Positions 9,498 to 22,057 of a stretch of 64,000 bases of DNA are shown one piece after another. The notes beneath the pieces were generated by a model, which made no database searches, was not told the DNA's origin, and worked only from the letters and a program-made list of their open reading frames with translations. Both the position numbers and the translations under genes were made by a program. Origin of the DNA: Candidatus Koribacter versatilis Ellin345 (GTDB lineage Bacteria > Acidobacteriota > Terriglobia > Terriglobales > Acidobacteriaceae); assembly GCF_000014005.1 (NCBI RefSeq), contig NC_008009.1, positions 4,340,001 through 4,404,000 on the forward strand, written 5' to 3'. Within the stretch, counting starts at the first letter, position 1; each line of letters opens with the position of its first letter.

Positions 9498-10913
9498 TTA
9501 GGAGGCGCCGTTCGCGTGGAGGTATGCGTCGATGCCCGCAGCGGCCTTACGGCCTTCGGCGATGGCCCATACCACCAGCGATTGGCCGCGTCGCATATCG
9601 CCCGCGGCAAAGACGCCTGTGACCGAGGTCATGGAGTTGTTGTCGGTCTGCACGTTACCGCGCGGATCGAGGGCAACGCCGAGTTGCTCGATCATGCCGT
9701 TGCGCACCGGGCCGGTGAAGCCCATCGCAAGCAACACGAGATCGGCTTCCACGACGAACTCGGTGCCGGCGATCGGTTCGAATTTCGGCGGTGGACCGAT
9801 CTGAACGCCGTGCAGTTGTTTCACGTTGCCATGTTCATCGCCGGTGAATTGCGCGGTTGCGACCGACCACTGGCGATCGCCGCCTTCTTCGTGCGAGCTC
9901 TCGGTACGCAGTTGCAGCGGCCATAGCGGCCACGGCGTCTGCCCCGCGCGCTCCTGAGGCGGCATCGGCATGATCTCGTATTGACGGACAGACTTTGCAC
10001 CCTGGCGATGCGAAGTGCCGAGACAATCGGCTCCGGTATCGCCGCCGCCGATGATGACGACATGCTTTCCCGTCGCGAGGATCTCTTTGTCGTTCACAGC
10101 TAGACCGGAGTTACGCCGGTTTTGTTGTGGCAGGAACTCCATCGCAAAGTGAATACCCTTGAGTTCGCGGCCGGGAACGGAGAGGTCGCGCGGCTGCTCA
10201 GCGCCGCCGGAGAGCAACACCACATCGTGTTCCGATCGAAGCTGCTCGACCGAGACGTTGACGCCGACGTGTGCGCTGGTCACGAACTGAACGCCCTCGG
10301 CTTCCATCTGGGCGACGCGACGATCCACAACGTGCTTCTCGAGCTTGAAGTTCGGGATGCCATAGCGAAGCAGACCACCAACGTGGTCAGCCTTCTCGTA
10401 GACGGTGACGGTGTGTCCGGCGCGGCGGAGTTGCTGCGCGGCTGCGAGGCCAGCGGGGCCTGAGCCGATGACCACGACCTTCTTGCCGGTTTCGGCCTTC
10501 GGCGGCTCGGGGTTGATCCATCCTTGGGCGAAGGCACGCTCGATGATCGTTTTCTCGATCTGCTTGATGGTGACCGGCGGCTGATTGATGCCGAGAACGC
10601 AGGAAGCTTCGCAGGGCGCGGGGCAGATGCGTCCGGTGAACTCCGGAAAATTGTTCGTGGCGTGGAGACGGCGAACCGCCTCGCGCCAGCGTCCGCGGTA
10701 CACGAGGTCATTCCAGTTGGGAATGTTGTTGTTGACCGGGCATCCGGTGTGACAGAAGGGCACACCGCAATCCATGCAGCGTGCGCCCTGCTCTTGAAGG
10801 CTCTGCTCAGGGAAGTCCTGGTAGATCTCGAACCAGTCGTTGATGCGCTCGATCACGGGCCGGCGCTGCGGGAGTTCGCGGGTGTATTCGAGGAACCCGG
10901 TGGTCTTACCCAT
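9498..10913 (-). CDS. gltD: glutamate synthase (NADPH) small subunit
   Basis: The 471-residue beta subunit passes electrons from NADPH through FAD and iron-sulfur clusters to the large subunit. The N-terminal cluster region shows [18 protein letters not shown] near residue 42 and [12 protein letters not shown] near 96. The FAD motif is [17 protein letters not shown] near 151, a second nucleotide-binding motif GGGDTGADC lies near 290, and the FAD-closing motif [17 protein letters not shown] near 437. ATG 10913 overlaps the end of gltB by 8 bases, indicating translational coupling and probably a 1:1 complex. Confidence 0.97.
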
Positions 10914-13900
10914 GCTGCACCTCCGCGGCTACCGGCGTTGGCTGGTGAACGATCAATGGAGGCGCGGCTTCGACCTTGCGCAATACGCGCTTGTATTCGT
11001 GTGGGAAAACCTTCACGAAGCGCGGCAGCGTGTCGGCCCAGTGCTGGAGGATCCAGCGCGCGCGGGAGCTGCCGGTGAGCACCATGTGTCTTGAGATCAA
11101 GCGGCGAAGGAATTCTTCGTCTTCGGTTTCGAGGGGATCGAGATCAACAGACGCGGTGTTGCAACGTTTCTGTGTAAAGTCGTCGCGCTCGTCGAAGACG
11201 TAGGCGATGCCGCCACTCATGCCCGCGGCGAAGTTGCGTCCGCAGGCACCGAGGACGACGACAGTGCCGTTGGTCATGTACTCGCAGCCGTGATCGCCGA
11301 GGCCTTCGACGATCGCAGTCGCCCCAGAGTTGCGAACCGCAAAGCGTTCGCCGGCGACGCCTGAGAAGAAGGCTTCTCCGCTCGTCGCGCCGTAAAGAAC
11401 GACGTTGCCAACGATGATGTTCTCTTCCGGAATCAGCGGCGAAATCTTTGGCGGATGAATGATGATGCGTCCACCGGAAAGGCCTTTGCCGGTGTAATCG
11501 TTGGCATCGCCTTCAAGCGTGAGGGTTACGCCTTTAGCGAGGAACGCACCGAAGCTCTGGCCCGCAGAGCCTTGAAAGTGAATGCGGATGGTTTCGTCAT
11601 CGAGCCCAGCCGAACCGTAGCGGCGGGCGATGTCGCCACTCAACATGGCGCCGACAGTGCGATGCACGTTGCGAATCGGAAGCGGAGCGAGTTCGATCGG
11701 TACTTTGCGTTCGACCGCGTCGCGGGTGCGATCGATGAGCAGGTAGTCGAGCGCGTCTTGCAGGCCGTGATCCTGCGCCTTCACGCAGCGGCGCGCGACA
11801 CGGCCCGGAAGCGTCGGGGTATAGAGAACGGTTGAGAGATCGAGGCCGCGGGCCTTCCAGTGGTCGGTAGCGTCACGCGCGTCAAGCATGTCAACGCGGC
11901 CGACCATTTCGTCAAAGGTGCGGAAACCCATCTGGGCCATGAAGCCGCGGACTTGCTCGGCGAGGAAGAAGAAGAAATTGATCACGTGCTCGGGCTGACC
12001 GCTGAAGCGCGCGCGCAGCACCGGATCCTGCGTGGCGATGCCGACGGAGCACGTGTTGAGGTGGCACTTGCGCATCATCACGCAGCCCATGGCGATGAGC
12101 GGCGTGGTTGCGAAGCCGAATTCTTCCGCTCCGAGAAGCGCGCCGATTACGACATCGCGGCCGGTTTGAAGTTTGCCATCGGTTTGAACACGGATGCGAC
12201 TGCGAAGGTCGTTGAGGAGCAGCGTCTGCTGTGTTTCGGCGAGGCCAAGCTCCCAGGGAATGCCGGCGTGCTTGATCGAACTGAGCGGCGAAGCGCCAGT
12301 TCCGCCGCTGTCGCCGGAAATTAGGACTACATCGGCATGTGCTTTCGCGACTCCGGCAGCGACCGTGCCGACGCCAACTTCAGCAACGAGCTTTACCGAG
12401 ATACGCGCCTGCGGGTTGACGTTCTTCAGGTCGTAGATGAGCTGTGCGAGATCTTCGATCGAGTAGATGTCGTGATGCGGTGGTGGCGAGATCAGTCCGA
12501 CGCCGGGCATGGAGTGGCGCAGCTTGGCGATGACTTCGTCCACCTTGTGGCCGGGCAGCTGGCCGCCCTCGCCGGGCTTGGCGCCCTGCGCCATCTTGAT
12601 CTGCAGTTCGTCGGCGTTGACGAGGTAGTTCGTGGTTACACCGAAGCGCGCGGAGGCGACTTGCTTCACCGCGCTGCGGCGGAGTTCTCCGTTTTCATCG
12701 CGCTGGAAGCGAGACTCGTCTTCCCCGCCCTCGCCCGTATTGGACTTGCCGCCGATGCGGTTCATGGCGATGGCGAGCGTCTCGTGGGCTTCCTTGCTGA
12801 TGGAGCCGAACGACATCGCACCGGTAGCGAAGCGCTTCACGATCTCTTTCGCGGGTTCGACTTCTTCGAGCGGAACTGGGCGAGCAGAGTCCTTGATTTT
12901 CAGCAACCCGCGCAGGGTGCAGAGTTCGCGGTTCTGGCTGTCGATGAGGTCGGTGTACTCCTGGAAGGTCTTGGCATCGGCGGAGCGGACGGCGTGCTGA
13001 AGCTTGCTGATCGTCTGCGGATTGAGCAGGTGGTATTCGCCATCGACGCGGTAGTGATATTGACCGCCTGACGACAGCTCCGCTTCGAAATCGCGCGGTG
13101 CACGGAATGCGAACTCGTGACGCAGTAGAGCTTCGCGCGCGATCACCTCGAGGCCAACGCCTTCAATGCGAGAGACAGTCCCGGCGAAGTGAGCGTCGAT
13201 CAGTTCGCCGTTGAGACCGATGGCCTCAAAGCACTGCGCTCCGCGATAGCTTTGCAGTGTGGAGATGCCCATCTTCGAGAAGGTCTTAAGCAGGCCTTTG
13301 TTTATGGCCTTGATGAAGTTCTTCACCGCAGACTCAGCAGTGACGCCGTCGTTGAGATAGCCGGAATTGGCGCGCTCTTCCAGCGTTTCGATGGCGAGAT
13401 ACGGATTGACCGCGCTGGCGCCGTAGCCGATCAACAATGCGAAATGCATGACTTCGCGCGGCTCGCCGGACTCGACAATCAACGCAACCTGGGTGCGCGT
13501 TTCCTCGCGGATCAGAGTGTTGTGAATGGCCGCGAGAGCGAGCAAGCTCGGGATCGGCGCGTACTGCTCGTCGAGCCCACGGTCGGAAAGGATGAGCAGC
13601 GTGTAGCCGGACTTCACCGACAGGGATGCGCGACGACAGAGTTCGTCGAGCGCGCGCTGCAAGCCCTCTTCGCCTTCCTTCACGCGGAATCCGGTGGAGA
13701 GAGTCGTCGCGAGAAGATCGCCATACGACAGACGCCGCAGCTTCTCAAGGTCGCGATTGGTAAGCACGGGCTGCGGCAGTTTCAGCGTGTGGCAGTTGAG
13801 CGGCGTCTCGTCGAGAATGTTGCGCTCAGTACCGATGTAGCTGGTGAGCGACATGACCATCTCTTCGCGAATGGGATCGATGGGCGGATTGGTGACTTGC

Positions 13901-15495
13901 GCGAAGAGTTGACGGAAGTAGCTGAACAGGAGTTGCGGGCGATCCGATAGACACGCAAGCGGCGTGTCGGTACCCATGGAACCAATGGGCTCCTCGCCCT
14001 TGTTGCCCATGGGCTCGAGGATCATCTGCAGATCCTCGTCGGTGTATCCAAAGGCGCGCTGACGACGCAGCAGCGTGCTGAGATCAGAAGCGTGAAGGCG
14101 GGTGGGCTCAGGAAGTTGTGCGAGCGTGATCTGGTTCTTCTCGAGCCACTCCTGGTAGGGCTGCCGCTCAGAGAGTGATTGCTTGATTTCTTTGTCGGTA
14201 ACGATGCGGCCGGCGACCGTATCCACAACGAACATCTTGCCGGGCTGAAGACGGCCCTTGCGTTTCACGCGATCGGCGGGCACGTCGAGCACGCCAGTTT
14301 CGGAGGCAAGCACAACGAGATCATCTTCCGTGACCATGTAGCGGCCCGGGCGCAGGCCATTGCGATCGAGCGTAGCGCCGATGAGACGGCCGTCGGTGAA
14401 GGCAATCGCCGCCGGACCATCCCACGGTTCCATCAGCGACGCGTGGTACTCGTAGAACGCGCGCTTCTCGGGCTTCATGTGCGGATTGCCGGTCCACGCC
14501 TCGGGAATGAGCATTGCCATCGCGTGCGGCAACGAGCGTCCGGCTTGCACGAGCAATTCGAGCGCGCAATCGAAAGCCGCGGAGTCGCTCGAACCGGACG
14601 GGATAATCGGGAAAAGCTTTTTAATGTCGTCACCGAAAAGCGGCGATTCGAGGATCGACTGGCGGGCATGCATCCAGCTCGCGTTGCCCTTCAGCGTGTT
14701 GATTTCGCCATTGTGCGCGACGTAGCGAAACGGGTGCGCGAGCTGCCAGCTCGGAAATGTGTTCGTGGAAAAGCGCTGGTGGACGAGGCAGAGAGAGCTG
14801 GTGACGTCGGGATCGGCCAGCTCGGGATAGAACTTGGAGAGCTGAGGCGCGATCAAAAGTCCCTTGTAAACGATCGTTCGCGACGAGAGCGACGGAATGT
14901 AGAACCATTCCTTCCAGTCCTCTTCGTGCTCTGCAATCTCGCGCTCAGTGCGCTTGCGAACGACGTAGAGCTTGCGCTCGAAGGCAGCTTCGTCCATCCC
15001 AGCTGGACGGTCGACAAAGATTTGCTCGATGTAGGGCTGCGAACCGCGGGCGACGCGGCCAATCGCAGTTTCGTCCACGGGAGTATCGCGCCAGCCGAGG
15101 ACCGTGAGGCCTTCCTCGCGAATAATGCGTTCGAGAATTCCTTCGCATTGCAAGCGGGGATGCGTGTCGACGGGCAGAAATACCATTCCTACGGCGTATT
15201 CACCGGGGTTCGGGAGCGAGAAGCCGGAGAGCGGGCACTCGCGCGCGAAGAATGTATGCGGGACCTGGATGGTGATGCCGGCGCCGTCGCCGGTTTCGGG
15301 ATCGCAGCCGCAGGCGCCGCGGTGCGCGAGGTTGATGAGGATCTCAAGGCCCTTGTCGATGATGGCGTGGCTCTTTTCGCCGCGCAGGCTCGCAACGAAG
15401 CCCATGCCGCAAGCGTCGTGCTCGTGACGGGGATCGTAGAGCCCCTGCGCGGGAGGGAGACCGGGGGAGTACTTTACCTGGGGATTCAAGTTCAC
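10906..15495 (-). CDS. gltB: glutamate synthase large subunit
   Basis: The 1529-residue alpha subunit makes two glutamates from glutamine and 2-oxoglutarate. From the GTG at 15495, preceded by AAGGAG, the catalytic Cys of the amidotransferase domain falls at residue 29 in HDACGMGF, giving the usual short propeptide. The central domain is followed by the FMN/synthase domain ([40 protein letters not shown]) and the 3Fe-4S cysteines in [15 protein letters not shown]. The C-terminal GXGXG beta-helix follows. The frame is open to 15579, but that stretch contains a terminator-like hairpin and is probably untranslated leader. Confidence 0.97.
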
Positions 15496-15518
15496 GCTCT
15501 CCTTCGACTGCAAATGCA

Positions 15519-15544
15519 AAACCCGCCTGGTCTTAGGCGGGTTT
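15519..15544 (-). terminator. terminator-like hairpin in the gltB leader
   Basis: On the minus strand AAACCCGCC (15544-15536), loop of 8 and GGCGGGTTT (15527-15519) form a perfect 9-bp stem followed by T and GC. It lies 24 bases upstream of the gltB start with no upstream gene on that strand. A competing upstream GGCGGGT (15577-15571, minus strand) can pair with its 5' arm, so it may be an attenuator. Confidence 0.6.
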
Positions 15545-15568
15545 GAGAACCTTTGGATTGCTGGTTTC

Positions 15569-15652
15569 CTACCCGCCACACTTCGCCTTTGTGCGCATAG
15601 CCGACTTGGCTGTGCGCTTTGTAATAGCGACTGTGCTCGGGTTCGGTTTCAT
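15569..15652 (-). CDS. possible leader ORF upstream of gltB
   Basis: A 27-codon ORF (ATG 15652, TAG ending at 15569) encoding a basic peptide rich in Lys, Thr and Ala and ending KCGG. Its last codons and stop read GGC GGG TAG, exactly the strand that could form the antiterminator with the 5' arm of the gltB leader hairpin. No Glu or Gln codon run is present and no good ribosome site precedes the ATG, so the call rests on position only. It could equally be chance. Confidence 0.25.
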
Positions 15653-15752
15653 CACAAGTGGGATACAGAATGAGGCATCAAGAGCATATCCGGCTCATCA
15701 AAAAATCGATGTTAATCATTCGTAATTTTGCGGGTTGCTGCGCGAATGGGGT

Positions 15753-15782
15753 TTGACACCTGGGAATGCGGTTGCGTATGGT
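15753..15782 (+). promoter_or_regulatory. probable his operon promoter
   Basis: A consensus -35 TTGACA (15753-15758) and a -10 TATGGT (15777-15782, four of six matches) are separated by 18 bases. Transcription would begin near 15789, so the leader peptide could start at the GTG at 15790, possibly without a 5' untranslated region, rather than at the ATG at 15778. Confidence 0.55.
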
Positions 15783-15861
15783 GAGAAACGTGAAGCATAC
15801 ATCCCATCGACACCATCATCATCATGCGTTCCGCGTGTCGGTGGAGTTGTGCGCTTCGTAG
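15778..15861 (+). CDS. hisL: his operon leader peptide
   Basis: A 27-codon ORF (ATG 15778, TAG 15859-15861) with seven His codons: CAT 15796, CAT 15805 and five consecutive codons CAC CAT CAT CAT CAT at 15811-15825. It lies 72 bases upstream of hisI and inside a set of mutually exclusive stem-loops. When charged tRNA-His is scarce a ribosome would stall in the His run and leave region 2 free; when it is plentiful the ribosome would reach the stop codon and cover region 2. The start may be ATG 15778 or GTG 15790; both keep all seven His codons. The peptide itself is not expected to have a function. Confidence 0.88.
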   Translation: MVRNVKHTSHRHHHHHAFRVSVELCAS

Positions 15862-15918
15862 ATACTTCGAAAGCACTTAAACTCAACCCGCCGACGCGCA
15901 CAGCGTCCGCGGGTTTTT
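15804..15918 (+). promoter_or_regulatory. his transcription attenuator (regions 1-4)
   Basis: Region 1 CCATCGACAC (15804-15813, overlapping the His codons) pairs with region 2 GTGTCGGTGG (15835-15844), 10 bp with one G-U. Region 2 GTCGGTGGAGTT (15837-15848) pairs alternatively with region 3 AACCCGCCGAC (15885-15895), 11 bp with one bulged A and one G-U. Region 3 with region 4 forms the terminator at 15885-15915. The pairings exclude each other, as in classical his and trp attenuators. Confidence 0.85.
15885..15918 (+). terminator. his attenuator terminator
   Basis: AACCCGC / GCGGGTT (15885-15891 and 15909-15915), one C-C mismatch, then GACGC / GCGTC (15893-15897 and 15903-15907) around loop GCACA, followed by TTT and more T. 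It ends 16 bases before the hisI ATG, so it acts in the leader and not at the end of a gene. Confidence 0.88.
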
Positions 15919-15933
15919 CGTTTGCGAGGAGTT

Positions 15934-16269
15934 ATGCAGATCGATTTCGACAAGATGCAGGGATTGGTGCCGGCCATTGTGCAGGACGCCGCCAACCTCG
16001 AGGTCCTCATGGTAGGGTTCATGAACCGTGAGGCGTATGAAAAGACACTGGCGACGGGCTACGTCACCTTTTACAGCCGAACCCGGAACACGCTTTGGAC
16101 GAAAGGCGAAACGTCGGGGAACCGGCTGCGCGTGATTGATGCCGCAACCGATTGCGACCGCGACACGGTGCTGGTGAAGGTAGCGGTAGAGGGCGACGGC
16201 CTGGTGTGCCACACGGGAACAAGGTCATGCTTCACCGAGACGTTGGCGGTTCCGGGAGCTTCGCGATGA
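15934..16269 (+). CDS. hisI: phosphoribosyl-AMP cyclohydrolase
   Basis: A 111-residue enzyme opening the purine ring of PR-AMP, third step of histidine synthesis. Family motifs are [18 protein letters not shown] (about residues 46-63), the metal-binding DCDRDTVLV near 73 and the Cys ligands in CHTGTRSCF near 94. It is the stand-alone type; no PR-ATP pyrophosphatase (HisE) domain is fused and none is found in the window. ATG 15934 is preceded by GAGGAG; a TTG 12 bases upstream is in frame but less likely. The stop overlaps hisG (ATGA). Confidence 0.95.
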
Positions 16270-17135
16270 AACTTCGACTGGGGATTCCGAAAGGGAGTTT
16301 GCAGGAGGCAACGATCGCCCTGTTCCTGCGCGCCGGGTTGACGGTGCACACGAGTACCCGCTCTTATACGGCCACCACTGATGACGCCGAAGTGGAGTGC
16401 ATGCTGATTCGGGCGCAAGAGATGGCGCGGTATGTATCGAAGGGCGTGCTGGATGCCGGCATCACCGGGATGGACTGGGTGGTGGAGAGCGGCCTGGAAG
16501 TCGAGGCAGTCTCGAGTTTGAACTATTCGAAGCAGAGCCGCGGTAACGTGCGCTGGGTGCTGGCAGTGCCGGAAGACTCGCCGTACCAGCGGGCGGAAGA
16601 CTTGGCGGGCAAGGTCATTGCGACGGAGTTGGTAAATGTCACGAGCCGATATTTTGCCGCGCGAGGCGTACCGGTGAAGATCGAATTCTCGTGGGGTGCG
16701 ACGGAGATCAAACCGCCGACACTGGCAGATGCGATCGTCGAAGTGACGGAAACCGGCAGTTCGCTGCGCGCCAATCGGCTGCGGATTATTGATGAGGTGA
16801 TGCCGTCGAGCACGCAACTGATTGCGAATGTCTCGGCGATGCAGGACGACTTCAAGCGAAAGAAGGTTGAGAACCTCGCGCTGATGCTGGAGGGCGCGAT
16901 CGCGGCGCAGGGACGCGTGGGATTGATGCTGAACGTGCGCAAGGGCGATTTGGCGAACGCGTTAGCCGTGTTGCCCGCGCTGAATTCGCCGACGATATCG
17001 CCGTTGAACGATGGTGAGTGGGTGGCGGTGAATACGATCATCGAGGAAACCGCCGCGTGGACGATCATTCCTCGACTGAAGGCGGCGAATGCGACGGGGA
17101 TCGTGGAGTATCCCTTGAACAAGGTGGTGCTGTGA
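16266..17135 (+). CDS. hisG: ATP phosphoribosyltransferase, long form
   Basis: The 289-residue first enzyme of histidine synthesis joins ATP and PRPP. The N-terminal catalytic domain starts [16 protein letters not shown] and carries [10 protein letters not shown] near residue 62 and the PRPP-loop region [16 protein letters not shown] near 158. The C-terminal part (about 210-289, [10 protein letters not shown]...VEYPLNKVV) is the ACT-like regulatory domain of the long form, so feedback inhibition by histidine is expected and HisZ is not needed. ATG overlaps the hisI stop by 4 bases. Confidence 0.96.
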
Positions 17136-18382
17136 TGCGCATCCTGCGACTGGAGAAATCCAGTGGGTTGCTGGCGAAGCTCGCGGCACGAGGAATGGCG
17201 GACGCTTCACGAGTGGAACCAGTAGTCCGGAAGATCGTTGTCGATGTACGAAAGAACGGCGACGCCGCGCTACGACGGTACGCGAGCAAGTTGGATGGAC
17301 TCGGAAAGACTGCGGCGTTGCGAGTGTCGACGGAAGAGTTGAAGTCTGCGTGGGATGCGACCCGCAGTGAATTTAAACAAGCGATCAGGGCCGCTGCGAA
17401 GAACATCGAGCGCTTCGCGCGCTGGCAGATGCCGAAATCGTGGACGCGTGACGCGGGCGATGGCATTGAGCTTGGACAAATCATTCGGCCAATCGAATCG
17501 GTGGGGTGCTACGTTCCGGGCGGGCGGTATCCGCTGCCCTCAACCGTGCTGATGACGGTGGTTCCAGCGCGGGTGGCGGGGGTGGAGAGGGTCGTTGTGG
17601 TATCGCCGAACCCGGCACGAGAGACGCTGGCAGCTGCGTACCTCTTGGGCGTTGGGGAGTTCTACCGGATCGGCGGCGCGCAGGCTGTGGCGGCGCTGGC
17701 GTACGGAACTGAGTCAGTCGAGCGGGTTGCGAAGATCGTGGGCCCCGGAAACATCTTCGTGACCACAGCGAAAAAGTTGGTGGCCTTCGATTGTGCGATC
17801 GACATGCTAGCAGGCCCTACAGAAGCCGCGATCGTGAGTGAGCGCGGGAATGCGCGCTTTATCGCTGCTGATCTTGTGGCGCAGGCAGAACATGATCCCG
17901 AGACCATGGTGGCGTTCTTTACGACGTCTCCCTCGCTGGCGGACGCGGTGAAAAAGCAAGTGGCGCTACTGGCAGCAAAGAACACGATTGCGCGAAAAGC
18001 GCTTGCGACTCGCGGTTACATTTTCGTCGCGCAGGATATTGCGCAAGCGATGGAGGCCGCGAACCAATTCGCTTCGGAGCACTTGACGGTCGATGAAGAT
18101 CTTCTCGAAACCGTATCCAGCGCGGGATCGGTGTTCGTGGGAGACTACTCGGCGCAATCGTTCGGTGACTACGCGAGTGGGCCGAACCATGTGCTGCCGA
18201 CAGGCGGGCTGGCGCGAGTGCGTGGCGGTTTGAGCGTGCTCGACTACGTGAAAATCATCACGGTGCAAAAGATTTCGCGAAAGGGACTGCGCGCGCTCGC
18301 GCCCATCGCTGAGACGCTCGCAGCTGCGGAGGGTCTCGTCGCGCACGGGCAATCGGTGGCGATTCGGAGGGCGAATGCTTAA
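17135..18382 (+). CDS. hisD: histidinol dehydrogenase
   Basis: A 415-residue zinc enzyme that oxidises histidinol to histidine in two NAD-dependent steps. Motifs: CYVPGGRYPLPST near residue 124, GPGNIFVTTAKK near 200, GPTEAAIVS near 226, the catalytic region ADLVAQAEHDPET near 246 and DYASGPNHVLPTGG near 345. The ATG shares one base with the hisG stop (TGATG). An N-terminal extension of 39 codons is open but lies within hisG and is not expected to be used. Confidence 0.97.
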   Translation: MRILRLEKSSGLLAKLAARGMADASRVEPVVRKIVVDVRKNGDAALRRYASKLDGLGKTAALRVSTEELKSAWDATRSEFKQAIRAAAKNIERFARWQMPKSWTRDAGDGIELGQIIRPIESVGCYVPGGRYPLPSTVLMTVVPARVAGVERVVVVSPNPARETLAAAYLLGVGEFYRIGGAQAVAALAYGTESVERVAKIVGPGNIFVTTAKKLVAFDCAIDMLAGPTEAAIVSERGNARFIAADLVAQAEHDPETMVAFFTTSPSLADAVKKQVALLAAKNTIARKALATRGYIFVAQDIAQAMEAANQFASEHLTVDEDLLETVSSAGSVFVGDYSAQSFGDYASGPNHVLPTGGLARVRGGLSVLDYVKIITVQKISRKGLRALAPIAETLAAAEGLVAHGQSVAIRRANA

Positions 18383-19445
18383 GGCGCGAGAGACCGTGCA
18401 GTCGCTGCCGACGTATCATCCGCCGCTCGGTGGGCGCGAGGGCCTGCGGCTCGACTTCAACGAGAATACGGTGGGATGCTCGCCGCGCGTGGCCGAAAAG
18501 CTGCGAGAGATCTCGCGAGACGCTCTGGCACGTTATCCCGAACGGGGAGCGGTCGAAGCGACCGTTGCGGAATTTCTGGGGCGAAACGTCGATGAAGTCC
18601 TGCTCACGAACGGCGTGGATGAAGGCATCCACCTGCTGTGCGAGACCTATCTTGAACCGGGCGACGAGGTGTTGATCGTGGTGCCGACGTTCGCGATGTA
18701 CGAGATTTACGCACGGGCAACGGGAGCAAAGGTCATTAGCATTCCGGCGGGCGAGGATTTTGTTTTCCCCACCGATGCCGTGCTCTCTGCGATTTCGCCT
18801 CGCACGCGGCTCATCGCCATCGCAAATCCGAACAATCCGACGGGCACGGCGGTTTCGAGAGCTGACTTGCTGACGATCGCGGAAGCCGCGCCCCACGCGG
18901 CGTTGCTCGTCGATGAAGCGTACTTCGAATTCCACGATAAGACGATGGTTGGCGACATCGCCCAAGTGCCGAATCTCTTTATCGCGCGAACGTTTTCGAA
19001 GGCCTACGGGCTGGCTGGTCTACGCATAGGAATCCTTGCTGGAGAAGCGGGACAAATGACAATGGTGCGACGCGTGAGTTCCCCTTACAACGTGAACGCC
19101 GCGGCGCTCGCTTGTTTGCCAGAGGCGCTCGCAGATTCGGAGTACGTGTCGCAGTATGTGCGGGAGAGTGTGACTAACCGCAGGCGGCTGGAAGAGTTTT
19201 TTGCCGCAGAAGGAATTCCCTTCTGGCCAAGCCGGGCGAATTTCGTTTTGGCCAGGTTCGACGAGCTTCGCGTGCCATTTGTAAAAGGAATGCGCGAACG
19301 AGGAATTCTAGTGAGAGATCGCAACAGCGACTACGGATGTGCTGGGTGCGTGCGCGTCACGGCGGGAACCGAGTCACAAATGGATTTGCTGTTCGAGGCG
19401 ATGAAGGACGTTTTGCGCGACTTGCGCCAAGGACAGGTTCGATGA
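18375..19445 (+). CDS. hisC: histidinol-phosphate aminotransferase
   Basis: A 356-residue fold-type I PLP enzyme transferring the amino group from glutamate to imidazole acetol phosphate. Visible are [12 protein letters not shown] near residue 29, ANPNNPTG near 152, LVDEAYFEF near 177 and the PLP-lysine motif [14 protein letters not shown] near 205. The length is normal. ATG 18375 overlaps the 3' end of hisD by 8 bases. Broad-specificity paralogs exist in other organisms, but the operon position fixes the role here. Confidence 0.96.
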
Positions 19446-20029
19446 GGAAGGCAACGCTCGACCGGAATACCGCCGAAACCAAGATCCACCTGGAATTGCA
19501 CGTGGACGGCAAGGGCAAGTATGAGATTTCGACGGGCATCCGGTTCTTTGATCACATGCTCGAGCTCTTCACGCGGCATGGCGCGTTCGATGTAACGCTG
19601 CGATGCGAGGGCGACCTCGACGTCGACCAGCATCACACCGTGGAAGATGTGGGGATCGCATTGGGGCAGGCGTTCACGCAGGCTCTCGGCAGCAAGATGG
19701 GTATCCTGCGCGCCGGATATTTCGTGATGCCCATGGACGAGACGCTGGCTGTGGCCGCCGTGGACTTAAGTGGACGAAGCGCATATGCGGTGGACACAAA
19801 AGTAAAAGTCAGGATTGTAGGCGACTTGCAGACGGAGTTGGTCGACGACTTCTTCGAAGGATTCAGCCGCGGAGCGCTGGCGAATGTACACATCAAGGTG
19901 ATGTACGGGCGTTCGAACCATCACAAGATTGAAGCTTCGTTCAAGGCATTTGCGCGAGCGCTGCGGTTCGCATGCGCCAAAGACAAGAGGCTGGCAAAAG
20001 TGCTGCCGAGCACGAAGGGACTGTTGTGA
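19442..20029 (+). CDS. hisB: imidazoleglycerol-phosphate dehydratase
   Basis: A 195-residue manganese enzyme dehydrating imidazole glycerol phosphate. The two metal-binding duplicates are visible: [13 protein letters not shown] near residue 37 with [16 protein letters not shown] near 60, and later [22 protein letters not shown] near 141. It is monofunctional, with no phosphatase domain, and no histidinol-phosphate phosphatase gene was recognised in the window. ATG overlaps the hisC stop (ATGA). Confidence 0.96.
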
Positions 20030-20622
20030 TCGCAATTGTTGATTACGGCGCCGGCAATCTGACTTCAGTGGCCAAGGCATTGCGGCATCTTGGAGCACTG
20101 GTTGAGATTACTGCCGATCCGATCGCCGTGGCCGCAGCCGATGCCGTAGTTCTGCCGGGCGTAGGCCACTTCGCGTCGACGCAGACGATCGGCCAGCAAG
20201 GACTGACGCCGGCGATTCGCGATGCGATCGCGAGCGACAAGCCGTTTCTTGGAATCTGCGTGGGACTGCAGTGGGTTTTCGCGGGGAGTGCAGAGGCGCC
20301 GGAAACTGCGGGACTCGGTTGTTTTGATGCCACGTGCGAGCGTTTCCCCGCAGGAGCGCGGGTGCCGCATGTGGGCTGGAACCAACTTGAGATCACTAGG
20401 CCGTCGCGCTTACTGGAAGGCGTTCGGAATGACGCTCACGTTTACTACACACATTCTTACTTCGCCCCGGTGGTTCCGGAGACTGTCGCGACGACGGAGT
20501 ATGGCTGCGATTTCACCGCAGTCGTGGAGAGAGGGAATACCTTCGCGGTGCAGTTTCATCCGGAAAAATCTGGCGAGAACGGGCTCACGATCCTTCGCAA
20601 TTTCGTGAGGCTCGCATGCTGA
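20026..20622 (+). CDS. hisH: imidazole glycerol phosphate synthase, glutaminase subunit
   Basis: A 198-residue class I amidotransferase supplying ammonia to HisF. The start [14 protein letters not shown] is canonical, the oxyanion-hole region is PGVGHF near residue 43, the nucleophile motif LGICVGLQ near 76 and the His-Glu pair in [12 protein letters not shown] near 178. The start is GTG at 20026 overlapping the hisB stop by 4 bases (GTGA). The end overlaps hisF by 7 bases, fitting 1:1 production of the complex. Confidence 0.95.
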
Positions 20623-21377
20623 AGCGACGGATCATCGCTTGTCTCGACGTGCGTGATGGGCGCGTGGTGAAGGGCGTGAATTTCGTAAATCTTCGCGATG
20701 CTGGATCTCCAGCGGAAATGGCCGGCGCCCACGCCAAGGCTGGGGCAGATGAGATCGTCCTGCTCGACATCACGGCGACCTACGAAGGCCGCGGCACGCT
20801 GCTCGAAACCGTCCGCAAGACCGCGGCAGAGTTGTTCATTCCATTCACGGTGGGCGGAGGAATTCGAACTCTCGACGACGCGCGTGCGGTGTTCGACTGC
20901 GGAGCCGACAAGCTCGCGATTAATTCAGCAGCTATCGCCGATCCCGACTTAATCACGAAGATCGCGGCACGATTTGGATCGCAAGCAGTGGTGCTGGCGA
21001 TTGACGCGAGACGTACCGGCTCGCGGTGGGAAGTCTTCAAGACCGGCGGGCGCACGGGAACTGGGCTGGACGCGGAGCAATGGGCAGCCGAGGGCGAGAA
21101 GCGGGGCGCAGGCGAGATATTGCTGACATCCATGGATTGCGATGGCACGCAGACTGGCTTCGACTGCGAATTGACCGCGGCGATTGCATCGCGCGTCTCG
21201 ATCCCGGTAATCGCGTCGGGCGGCGCCGGCACGGCAGAGCACTTTGTAGACGTATTTCAACGAGGACACGCGGATGCTGCGCTGGCTGCGTCGATCTTCC
21301 ATTTTGGCGTGCATGATGTGAATGAGCTGAAACGCACACTGTCGGCTGCGGGAATTCCTGTGAGGCTCGAATGCTAA
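20616..21377 (+). CDS. hisF: imidazole glycerol phosphate synthase, cyclase subunit
   Basis: A 253-residue TIM barrel that closes the imidazole ring and releases AICAR. Motifs: [18 protein letters not shown] (residues 6-23, catalytic Asp), [14 protein letters not shown] near 77, DKLAINSAA near 98 and [13 protein letters not shown] near 169 (second catalytic Asp), ending with [10 protein letters not shown] near 195. ATG overlaps hisH by 7 bases (ATGCTGA). Unusually, hisF precedes hisA here. Confidence 0.96.
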
Positions 21378-22057
21378 TCCCCTCGATCGATCTCATGGGC
21401 GGGAAGATTGTGCAACTCGTCCAGGGAGAGAAGAAGGCCTTTGAGACCACCGATTTCGATGCGTGGTGTGAGCGCTTCGCAGGATTTCCGATGGTCCAGC
21501 TCATCGACCTCGACGCAGCAAAGAGGCAAGGCGATAACCGCGAACTCATCGCGAATATCGTTTTGCGACTTCCCTGCCAAGTCGGCGGCGGAGTGCGAGA
21601 TGCCGACGTCGCCGAGCGACTGTTGGCGATTGGAGCGAAGCGGGTGATCGTTGGCTCATCGTATATACGGGACGGCCGTGTTGATGTGGACTTCGCGCGA
21701 GGCCTGGCAGAGCGCTGCGGCACGGATCGCGTCATCGCCGCCATCGACTCGCGAGAAGGCTTCGTTGCGGTGCGTGGGTGGCAGGAGTCGGTGCCGATCA
21801 CTGCTGGCGAAATGATTGCAGCGCTCACTCCCTACGTGGGCGGGTTCCTCTACACGCACGTGGACACCGAAGGACTATTGGTAGGATTTCCAACTGACAT
21901 TGCTCGACGTCTGCGCACGCTCACCGAGAAGCAATTGATTGCGGCCGGAGGTATTCGTTCGCAAGAAGAGATTGATGAACTCGACGGAATTGGGGTGGAT
22001 GCTGTCGTTGGGATGGCGATTTATACGGGCAAACTCGTGGTGAAGGGGAATTCTTAA
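21371..22057 (+). CDS. hisA: ProFAR isomerase
   Basis: A 228-residue TIM barrel catalysing the Amadori rearrangement of ProFAR. Motifs: [15 protein letters not shown] (residues 2-16, catalytic Asp at 7), [17 protein letters not shown] near 73, [11 protein letters not shown] near 161 (second catalytic Asp) and [10 protein letters not shown] near 191. It overlaps hisF by 7 bases (ATGCTAA) and shares one base with the ppc start. Slightly short for the family (about 240) but complete at both ends. Confidence 0.92.

Follow-up and report, generated by a model that had tools for sequence, protein, structure and literature searches.

The his operon and its leader region

The window, that is, the whole 64-kb stretch of DNA that was analysed, carries on its plus strand a histidine operon in which hisI (15934–16269) is the first structural gene and is followed by hisG, hisD, hisC, hisB, hisH, hisF and hisA (16266–22057), as read from the list of open reading frames (ORFs) and from NCBIfam. 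The NCBIfam matches give the order hisI, G, D, C, B, H, F, A; HisA falls under its curated cut-off, and the other seven are each above at least one. The initial annotation had inferred an acidobacterial phylum, and indeed the four closest named matches of hisI are from Acidobacteria. A Shine–Dalgarno-like GAGGAG (15926–15931, plus strand), recognised by reading the sequence, stands before hisI. A divergent gltB-like gene, named from its sequence, occupies the minus strand on the other side (ORF 10906–15579). Upstream of its likely GTG start (about 15495), the minus strand can form a GC-rich hairpin of 10 bp with a short T run (15519–15544; z −1.8, 9 of 200 shuffles as good), which may act as a terminator or attenuator of glutamate synthase. 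The gltB–hisI divergent region holds another hairpin, of 11 pairs and with a weak T tail (15593–15617, plus strand).

A short His-rich ORF on the plus strand precedes hisI. The frame of 27 codons with seven His codons, five of them consecutive, that had been described at 15778–15861 exists as such; the part of it most likely translated runs from GTG 15790 to 15861 and comprises 23 codons (MKHTSHRHHHHHAFRVSVELCAS) followed by TAG. It is rich in the codon for the product of the operon (7 of 23 codons are His). The run of five His codons at 15811–15825, identified by reading the sequence and by a scan for CAY runs, is the proposed sensing site. Within the 64-kb window, the plus strand has no other case of at least four CAY triplets in a row, and the minus strand has a single one.

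Conservation of the leader before his genes

Conservation of the His codons in relatives, set beforehand as a test of attenuation, is what the comparison reveals. Among 41 genomes, hisI was located in 29 (the window's own included), and at 28 of these 29 loci, again including the window, at least five His codons in ten lie upstream of the gene; the sole exception is L030, from another family of the same class, where a His-rich ORF upstream of hisI was not seen. The 28 His-rich leader ORFs have 19–29 codons with 5–9 His, and a strict finder detects a terminator in 27 of them. In a separate collection of named records (80 loci, 79 testable), with the mark set at no fewer than four His codons in ten upstream of hisI, 11 of the 12 records titled Acidobacteria or subgroups reach it; no His-rich leader was seen upstream of hisI in L051, titled Terriglobia. 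Four of the other 67 testable records also reach it (L082, L083, L045 and L053). The ORF of L082 (Aeromonas) is not a leader, judging by its position and peptide; L045 is titled Armatimonadetes; and the leader of L053, titled Cyanobacteria, is identical to that of L153, which comes from an Acidobacteriota genome. In L083, titled Ferrithrix thermotolerans, an actinobacterium, the His-rich ORF lies some 160 nt ahead of hisI.

In a sample of 396 Acidobacteriota genomes, a covariance model built on 26 leaders with the terminator as its only structure (R1) has matches at E ≤ 0.01 in 134, in some of which the terminator alone is matched; matches limited to the terminator (positions 104–143) were not counted as leaders. 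In the window's family, R1 matches 42 genomes, and the misses listed, in order of kinship, include two of its members; the 30 R1 loci examined, each from this family, all precede hisI. Forty full-length matches were chosen from other families, and in 32 of them a His-rich ORF precedes hisI, hisG or hisZ: 31 precede hisI or hisG (four a distant hisG, 32–34% identical) and one (L150) a hisZ-like gene. The remaining eight are not his leaders (L159, L169, L170, L174, L175, L176, L178 and L180). In L150 (genome G123, family f24), the His leader has a similar layout and lies directly upstream of its gene, whose best NCBIfam match, on a cut stretch and below cut-off, is hisZ.

A second model (R2), built on 45 leaders of many families, matches 116 of the 396 genomes at E ≤ 0.001. 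Twenty places outside its training set were examined, and 14 of these stand before his genes (one before hisD), three before proC and three before neither. The six outside the his genes are not his leaders, and the three without proC (L217, L221 and L224) precede nothing recognised. The leader upstream of the hisD-like gene (L219; genome G042, family f7) has four consecutive His codons (LHHHHG). Among the matches chosen for checking, verified his leaders come from 20 sampled families (f1, f2, f3, f5, f7, f8, f18, f20, f24, f27, f29, f31, f36, f47, f49, f61, f65, f70, f78 and f87). As a control, 28 genomes reached via loci titled as other phyla were searched with R1, and ten have a match at E ≤ 0.01; weak R1 matches alone are no proof of a his leader. 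The two best full-length matches of this control are the genuine his leaders of Aeromonas and Photobacterium (E 4.4e-6 and 1.3e-4), which shows that R1 can recognise known his leaders.

Promoter and start of the leader peptide

The promoter consists of a −35 hexamer TTGACA (15753–15758), obtained by a promoter scan and also called in relatives blind to the start codon, and of a −10 hexamer TATGGT (15777–15782), both on the plus strand and separated by 18 nt. It scores 10 of 12 and intervenes between the divergent gltB-like gene and hisI. Within the scanned region 15400–16600, TATGGT is the only sigma-70-like −10 box found. It encloses the ATG at 15778, so that a transcript from this promoter would begin downstream of that codon. 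In frame with the His run, GTG 15790 begins 7 nt past the −10 hexamer, matching the position of the start codon in relatives; at the same-genus locus L003, an ATG lies 6 nt downstream of an identical TATGGT.

This spacing recurs throughout the collected leaders. Promoter calling that ignored the start codon, applied to 96 distinct leaders, gives a score of at least 9 in 62, of which 57 have their nearest in-frame start 6–11 nt after the −10 hexamer; five were placed outside that spacing by the script, one of them (L164) having an ATG at 9 nt on re-reading. A TANNNT box is present 6–11 nt before the start in 29 of the remaining 34 leaders, with promoter scores below 9. Shine–Dalgarno-like 4-mers before the leader start are found in three of the 96. 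RNA polymerase usually initiates some 6–8 nt past the −10 hexamer, which, with the spacing observed, would put the start codon at the 5′ end of the transcript or within a few nucleotides of it. The his leader mRNA is probably leaderless or nearly so, with transcription predicted to start at about 15789–15790, and the start of the leader peptide is most likely GTG 15790 (23 codons) and not ATG 15778. The leaderless or near-leaderless start that the initial annotation had predicted from the promoter thus turns out to be a conserved feature, while its choice of ATG 15778 as the first of 27 codons is not borne out.

Alternative pairings and their covariation

Downstream of the start, the plus strand holds the segments of three alternative pairings. 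Region 1 (15793–15813), assigned by folding and by partner-specific pairing over 96 leaders, is the 5′ arm of the protector hairpin 1:2. Region 2 (15833–15851), assigned by folding, a swapped-partner test and covariation, can take either region 1 or region 3 as its partner. Region 3 (15882–15899), assigned by folding and covariation, serves as 3′ arm of the antiterminator 2:3 and as 5′ arm of the intrinsic terminator 3:4 (15885–15915), which was located by a terminator finder and covariation and is followed by TTTCGTTT. The pairings proposed from the sequence were largely recovered. Pairing of 15804–15813 with 15835–15844 (1:2) is possible, and that of 15837–15848 with 15885–15895 (2:3) is confirmed with fuller limits, 15833–15851 with 15882–15899, at −29.3 kcal/mol, a strength that none of 200 shuffles equals and that places the window near the top of the 96 leaders. 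The U-tailed terminator is likewise found where it had been described, just before hisI, with a hairpin energy of −21.5 kcal/mol. The fold of 15789–15930 beats all 200 shuffles (z −3.9); when region 1 is omitted (15828–15930), z is only −1.8 and 11 of 200 shuffles are as good.

Comparison across leaders relied on several alignments. Alignment A3, made with a covariance model from which 2:3 was left out, holds 104 matches (98 leaders and six on the opposite strand); the set of 96 results from dropping two identical leaders (L139 and L153) and the six opposite-strand matches. In A3, 79% of the 2:3 cells pair, slid versions being far lower, and 11 of the 12 pairs changed on both sides, as in 11 of 500 shuffles, while the covariation score is reached by none of 500. 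The 2:3 signal is weaker in the family-diverse alignment A4 (45 leaders; none of 500 shuffles attains the score, and 119 of 500 attain the number of pairs changed on both sides) and unconvincing in A2, the first alignment, made with MAFFT (19 of 500 and 245 of 500, respectively). For the terminator, 92% of the cells are paired in an alignment fitted to its structure, and 9 of 12 pairs carry changes in both partners (0 of 500 shuffles); in an unfitted alignment these values are 80% and 7 of 12, and the score is again reached by 0 of 500.

Tests free of alignment point in the same direction. Over the 96 leaders, region 2 pairs with its own region 3 at a mean of −21.8 kcal/mol, versus −18.4 kcal/mol with swapped partners (permutation sd 0.31, a difference of about 11 sd); when each family is represented by a single leader (18 leaders), the values are −21.9 and −17.8 kcal/mol, reached by none of 20,000 permutations. 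Leader by leader, the 2:3 test gives p ≤ 0.05 in about 65%. The 1:2 pairing behaves similarly (own −21.6 versus swapped −18.9 kcal/mol, 0 of 5,000; one per family, 0 of 20,000), with a weak signal by single-sequence shuffles (mean z −0.77, 21% below −1.645). Compensatory changes in the alternative pairings, which had been suggested as a check in the upstream regions of relatives, are seen in both terminator and antiterminator. The comparison argues that antiterminator and terminator are mutually exclusive structures conserved through compensating change, less strongly on A2 and A4, and that the protector hairpin is conserved as a specific pairing, less clearly so by single-sequence shuffles.

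A proposed switch and its folding

The element, unusually compact, is very probably a ribosome-mediated transcription attenuator of hisIGDCBHFA, whose leader peptide would be translated from a leaderless or near-leaderless 5′ end, and this device occurs widely in Acidobacteriota. From the layout we infer the exact transcription start, the stalling of ribosomes, termination and the response of the leader to histidine. RNA polymerase would initiate at about 15789–15790 and a ribosome would start on the 5′-terminal GTG. When His-tRNA is short, the ribosome would stall in the run of five His codons and cover region 1, leading regions 2 and 3 to pair and polymerase to continue into hisI. When His-tRNA is plentiful, the ribosome would reach the stop codon and cover the 3′ half of region 2, or would depart and let 1:2 form, and in either case the 3:4 terminator would form. 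If no ribosome starts, 1:2 and 3:4 would both form and transcription would end.

The window leader was folded at equilibrium with the footprint of the ribosome masked and with the RNA partly or fully emerged. When the RNA has emerged to the end of region 3, 15 pairs of 2:3 are expected for a ribosome placed at the first or third His of the run and 11 for one at the last. At full length, the terminator forms whether the ribosome sits at the stop codon or is absent, and in the latter case a strong 1:2 accompanies it. Other states depart from the scheme. Without a ribosome and with the RNA out only through region 3, 2:3 beats 1:2 (15.2 versus 0 expected pairs); with the ribosome at the stop codon, 2:3 keeps 8.9 expected pairs; and once all RNA is out, a ribosome at the first His leaves 2:3 and 3:4 level (7.0 versus 6.9 expected pairs), and one at the third or last favours 3:4. 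A ribosome at the stop codon leaves about nine 5′ nucleotides of region 2 free. Given that equilibrium folding does not yield the whole switch, the order and timing of folding must decide. The order of hairpin formation is generally held to be decisive in attenuators.

Other leaders and wider meaning

In family f26 (L218, L220 and L223, from genomes G103, G179 and G203), a conserved 20-codon ORF with Pro codons lies just upstream of proC, a gene identified by NCBIfam in L223 and by the same first codons in L218 and L220. The start of the ORF (MILIPAIHPRPSTLRAGGVA and variants, frame from ATG) lies 7 nt beyond a TANNNT box, and a U-tailed hairpin stands between the ORF and proC; the ORF likely encodes a leaderless leader peptide for a proline gene. 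In the genome of the window, reading by eye of the heads of leuA, trpE, ilvB, pheS and ilvD revealed no evident leader peptide, and the heads of leuA, trpE, ilvB and pheS gave no Rfam match. Upstream of ilvD (L190), where no leader peptide is evident, a GC-rich hairpin and then ATTTTTA stand just before the gene. Upstream of trpE (L184), a TATAAT is followed 9 nt later by an ATG, without a Trp leader being seen, and trpE may itself be leaderless.

It is conceivable, though somewhat short of an even chance, that leaderless leader peptides are a general mode of attenuation in Acidobacteriota, with the same layout serving other amino acids, as before proC in f26. On such a reading, the ribosome would load on the first nucleotides of the nascent transcript, allowing sensor, switch and terminator to fit in about 130 nt. 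As the ribosome must load once the 5′ end emerges, leaderless initiation and transcription–translation coupling must act together, and the acidobacterial leaders offer a natural series in which the two have to cooperate. They make testable the speed of initiation on a leaderless leader and which form of the ribosome performs it.

Alternative explanations

A His-rich frame arising by chance beside an ordinary terminator has the shortness of the element as its sole support and is a negligible prospect, given the occurrence of the element before his genes in 20 families and the partner specificity of its pairings. Another reading, in which the hairpin controls translation of hisI or works via Rho with no intrinsic termination, can point to the leaderless poly-Cys short ORFs of mycobacteria reported as attenuators (by a title listed in PMC13236596) and to some weak terminators among the leaders (−10.8 kcal/mol at the extreme). 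It is rendered highly improbable by a GC-rich hairpin with a U run in 27 of 28 leaders with the strict finder and 96 of 96 with a laxer one, by the co-variation of the terminator pairs, and by the GAGGAG of hisI, which in the window falls outside the hairpin. The same attenuator might also be read from ATG 15778 (27 codons), in a transcript begun further upstream and endowed with an ordinary 5′ UTR. That ATG is in frame and gives the longer ORF, but its position inside the sole −10 box of the scanned region, the ATG of L003 placed 6 nt past the identical hexamer, the 6–11 nt spacing in 57 of 62 leaders and the rarity of Shine–Dalgarno-like 4-mers (3 of 96) make this quite improbable.

A last alternative is that the element is simply the proteobacterial His_leader (RF00514), acquired by descent or by transfer. 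The search with this Rfam model, proposed in the initial annotation, yields an end-to-end alignment to the window leader, which speaks for kinship, at a score of 22.4 bits that stays below the gathering cut-off of 49; the recovery of true Aeromonas and Photobacterium his leaders as the two best full-length control matches of R1 speaks the same way. On the other side, RF00514 at its gathering threshold has no match in loci L002–L021, none of 31 genomes passes the cut-off, and in that scan the window genome has no match at E ≤ 1. Moreover, hisI comes first instead of hisG, there is no room for a 5′ UTR or a Shine–Dalgarno sequence, and the common part (a CAY run and a GC hairpin) could be convergent. 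On balance, such an identity is unlikely, and an acidobacterial attenuator with a leaderless or near-leaderless leader peptide is preferred.

Comparison with known systems

Leaderless genes average 13.3% in three acidobacterial genomes, according to the portion of PMC3160421 available. No his leader in Acidobacteria was found described in the open literature searched, part of it in excerpt; a survey by Lopatovskaya et al. 2010, present here as a citation in PMC4833913, could hold predictions. In the accessible part of PMC2965389, a His-codon leader ORF with a candidate attenuator is reported upstream of hisZ and hisS* in bacilli, and its authors knew of no leader peptides demonstrated outside Proteobacteria and Actinobacteria, except for ermC. 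These leaders differ from the acidobacterial one in their host and in their genes.

Leaderless attenuators have been described for other amino acids. The attenuator RNA of Sinorhizobium meliloti (rnTrpL/peTrpL) begins at the trpL ATG, according to PMC7298713, and probably shares with the acidobacterial his leader a leaderless leader peptide; it differs in sensing Trp, in its alphaproteobacterial host and in its 14-aa peptide. Like the predicted acidobacterial leader, the poly-Cys ORFs of mycobacteria are leaderless, amino-acid-rich and attenuating; unlike it, they concern cysteine and not his. Their attenuation reportedly takes place at translation. A title by Canestrari et al. 2020, in the reference list of PMC13236596, has such leaderless poly-Cys short ORFs attenuating an operon.

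A close counterpart is the enterobacterial hisL (RF00514), which has in common with the acidobacterial leader a His run, mutually exclusive hairpins and a U-tailed terminator before a his operon, the two being detected weakly by each other's models. The acidobacterial leader differs in scoring below the Rfam cut-off, in standing mostly before hisI and not hisG, and in having no room for a 5′ UTR or a Shine–Dalgarno sequence, whereas Aeromonas L196 has AAAGGA upstream of its ATG. Taken together, the comparison suggests a mechanism like that of the enterobacterial his attenuator, with precedents for its leaderless form in attenuators elsewhere.
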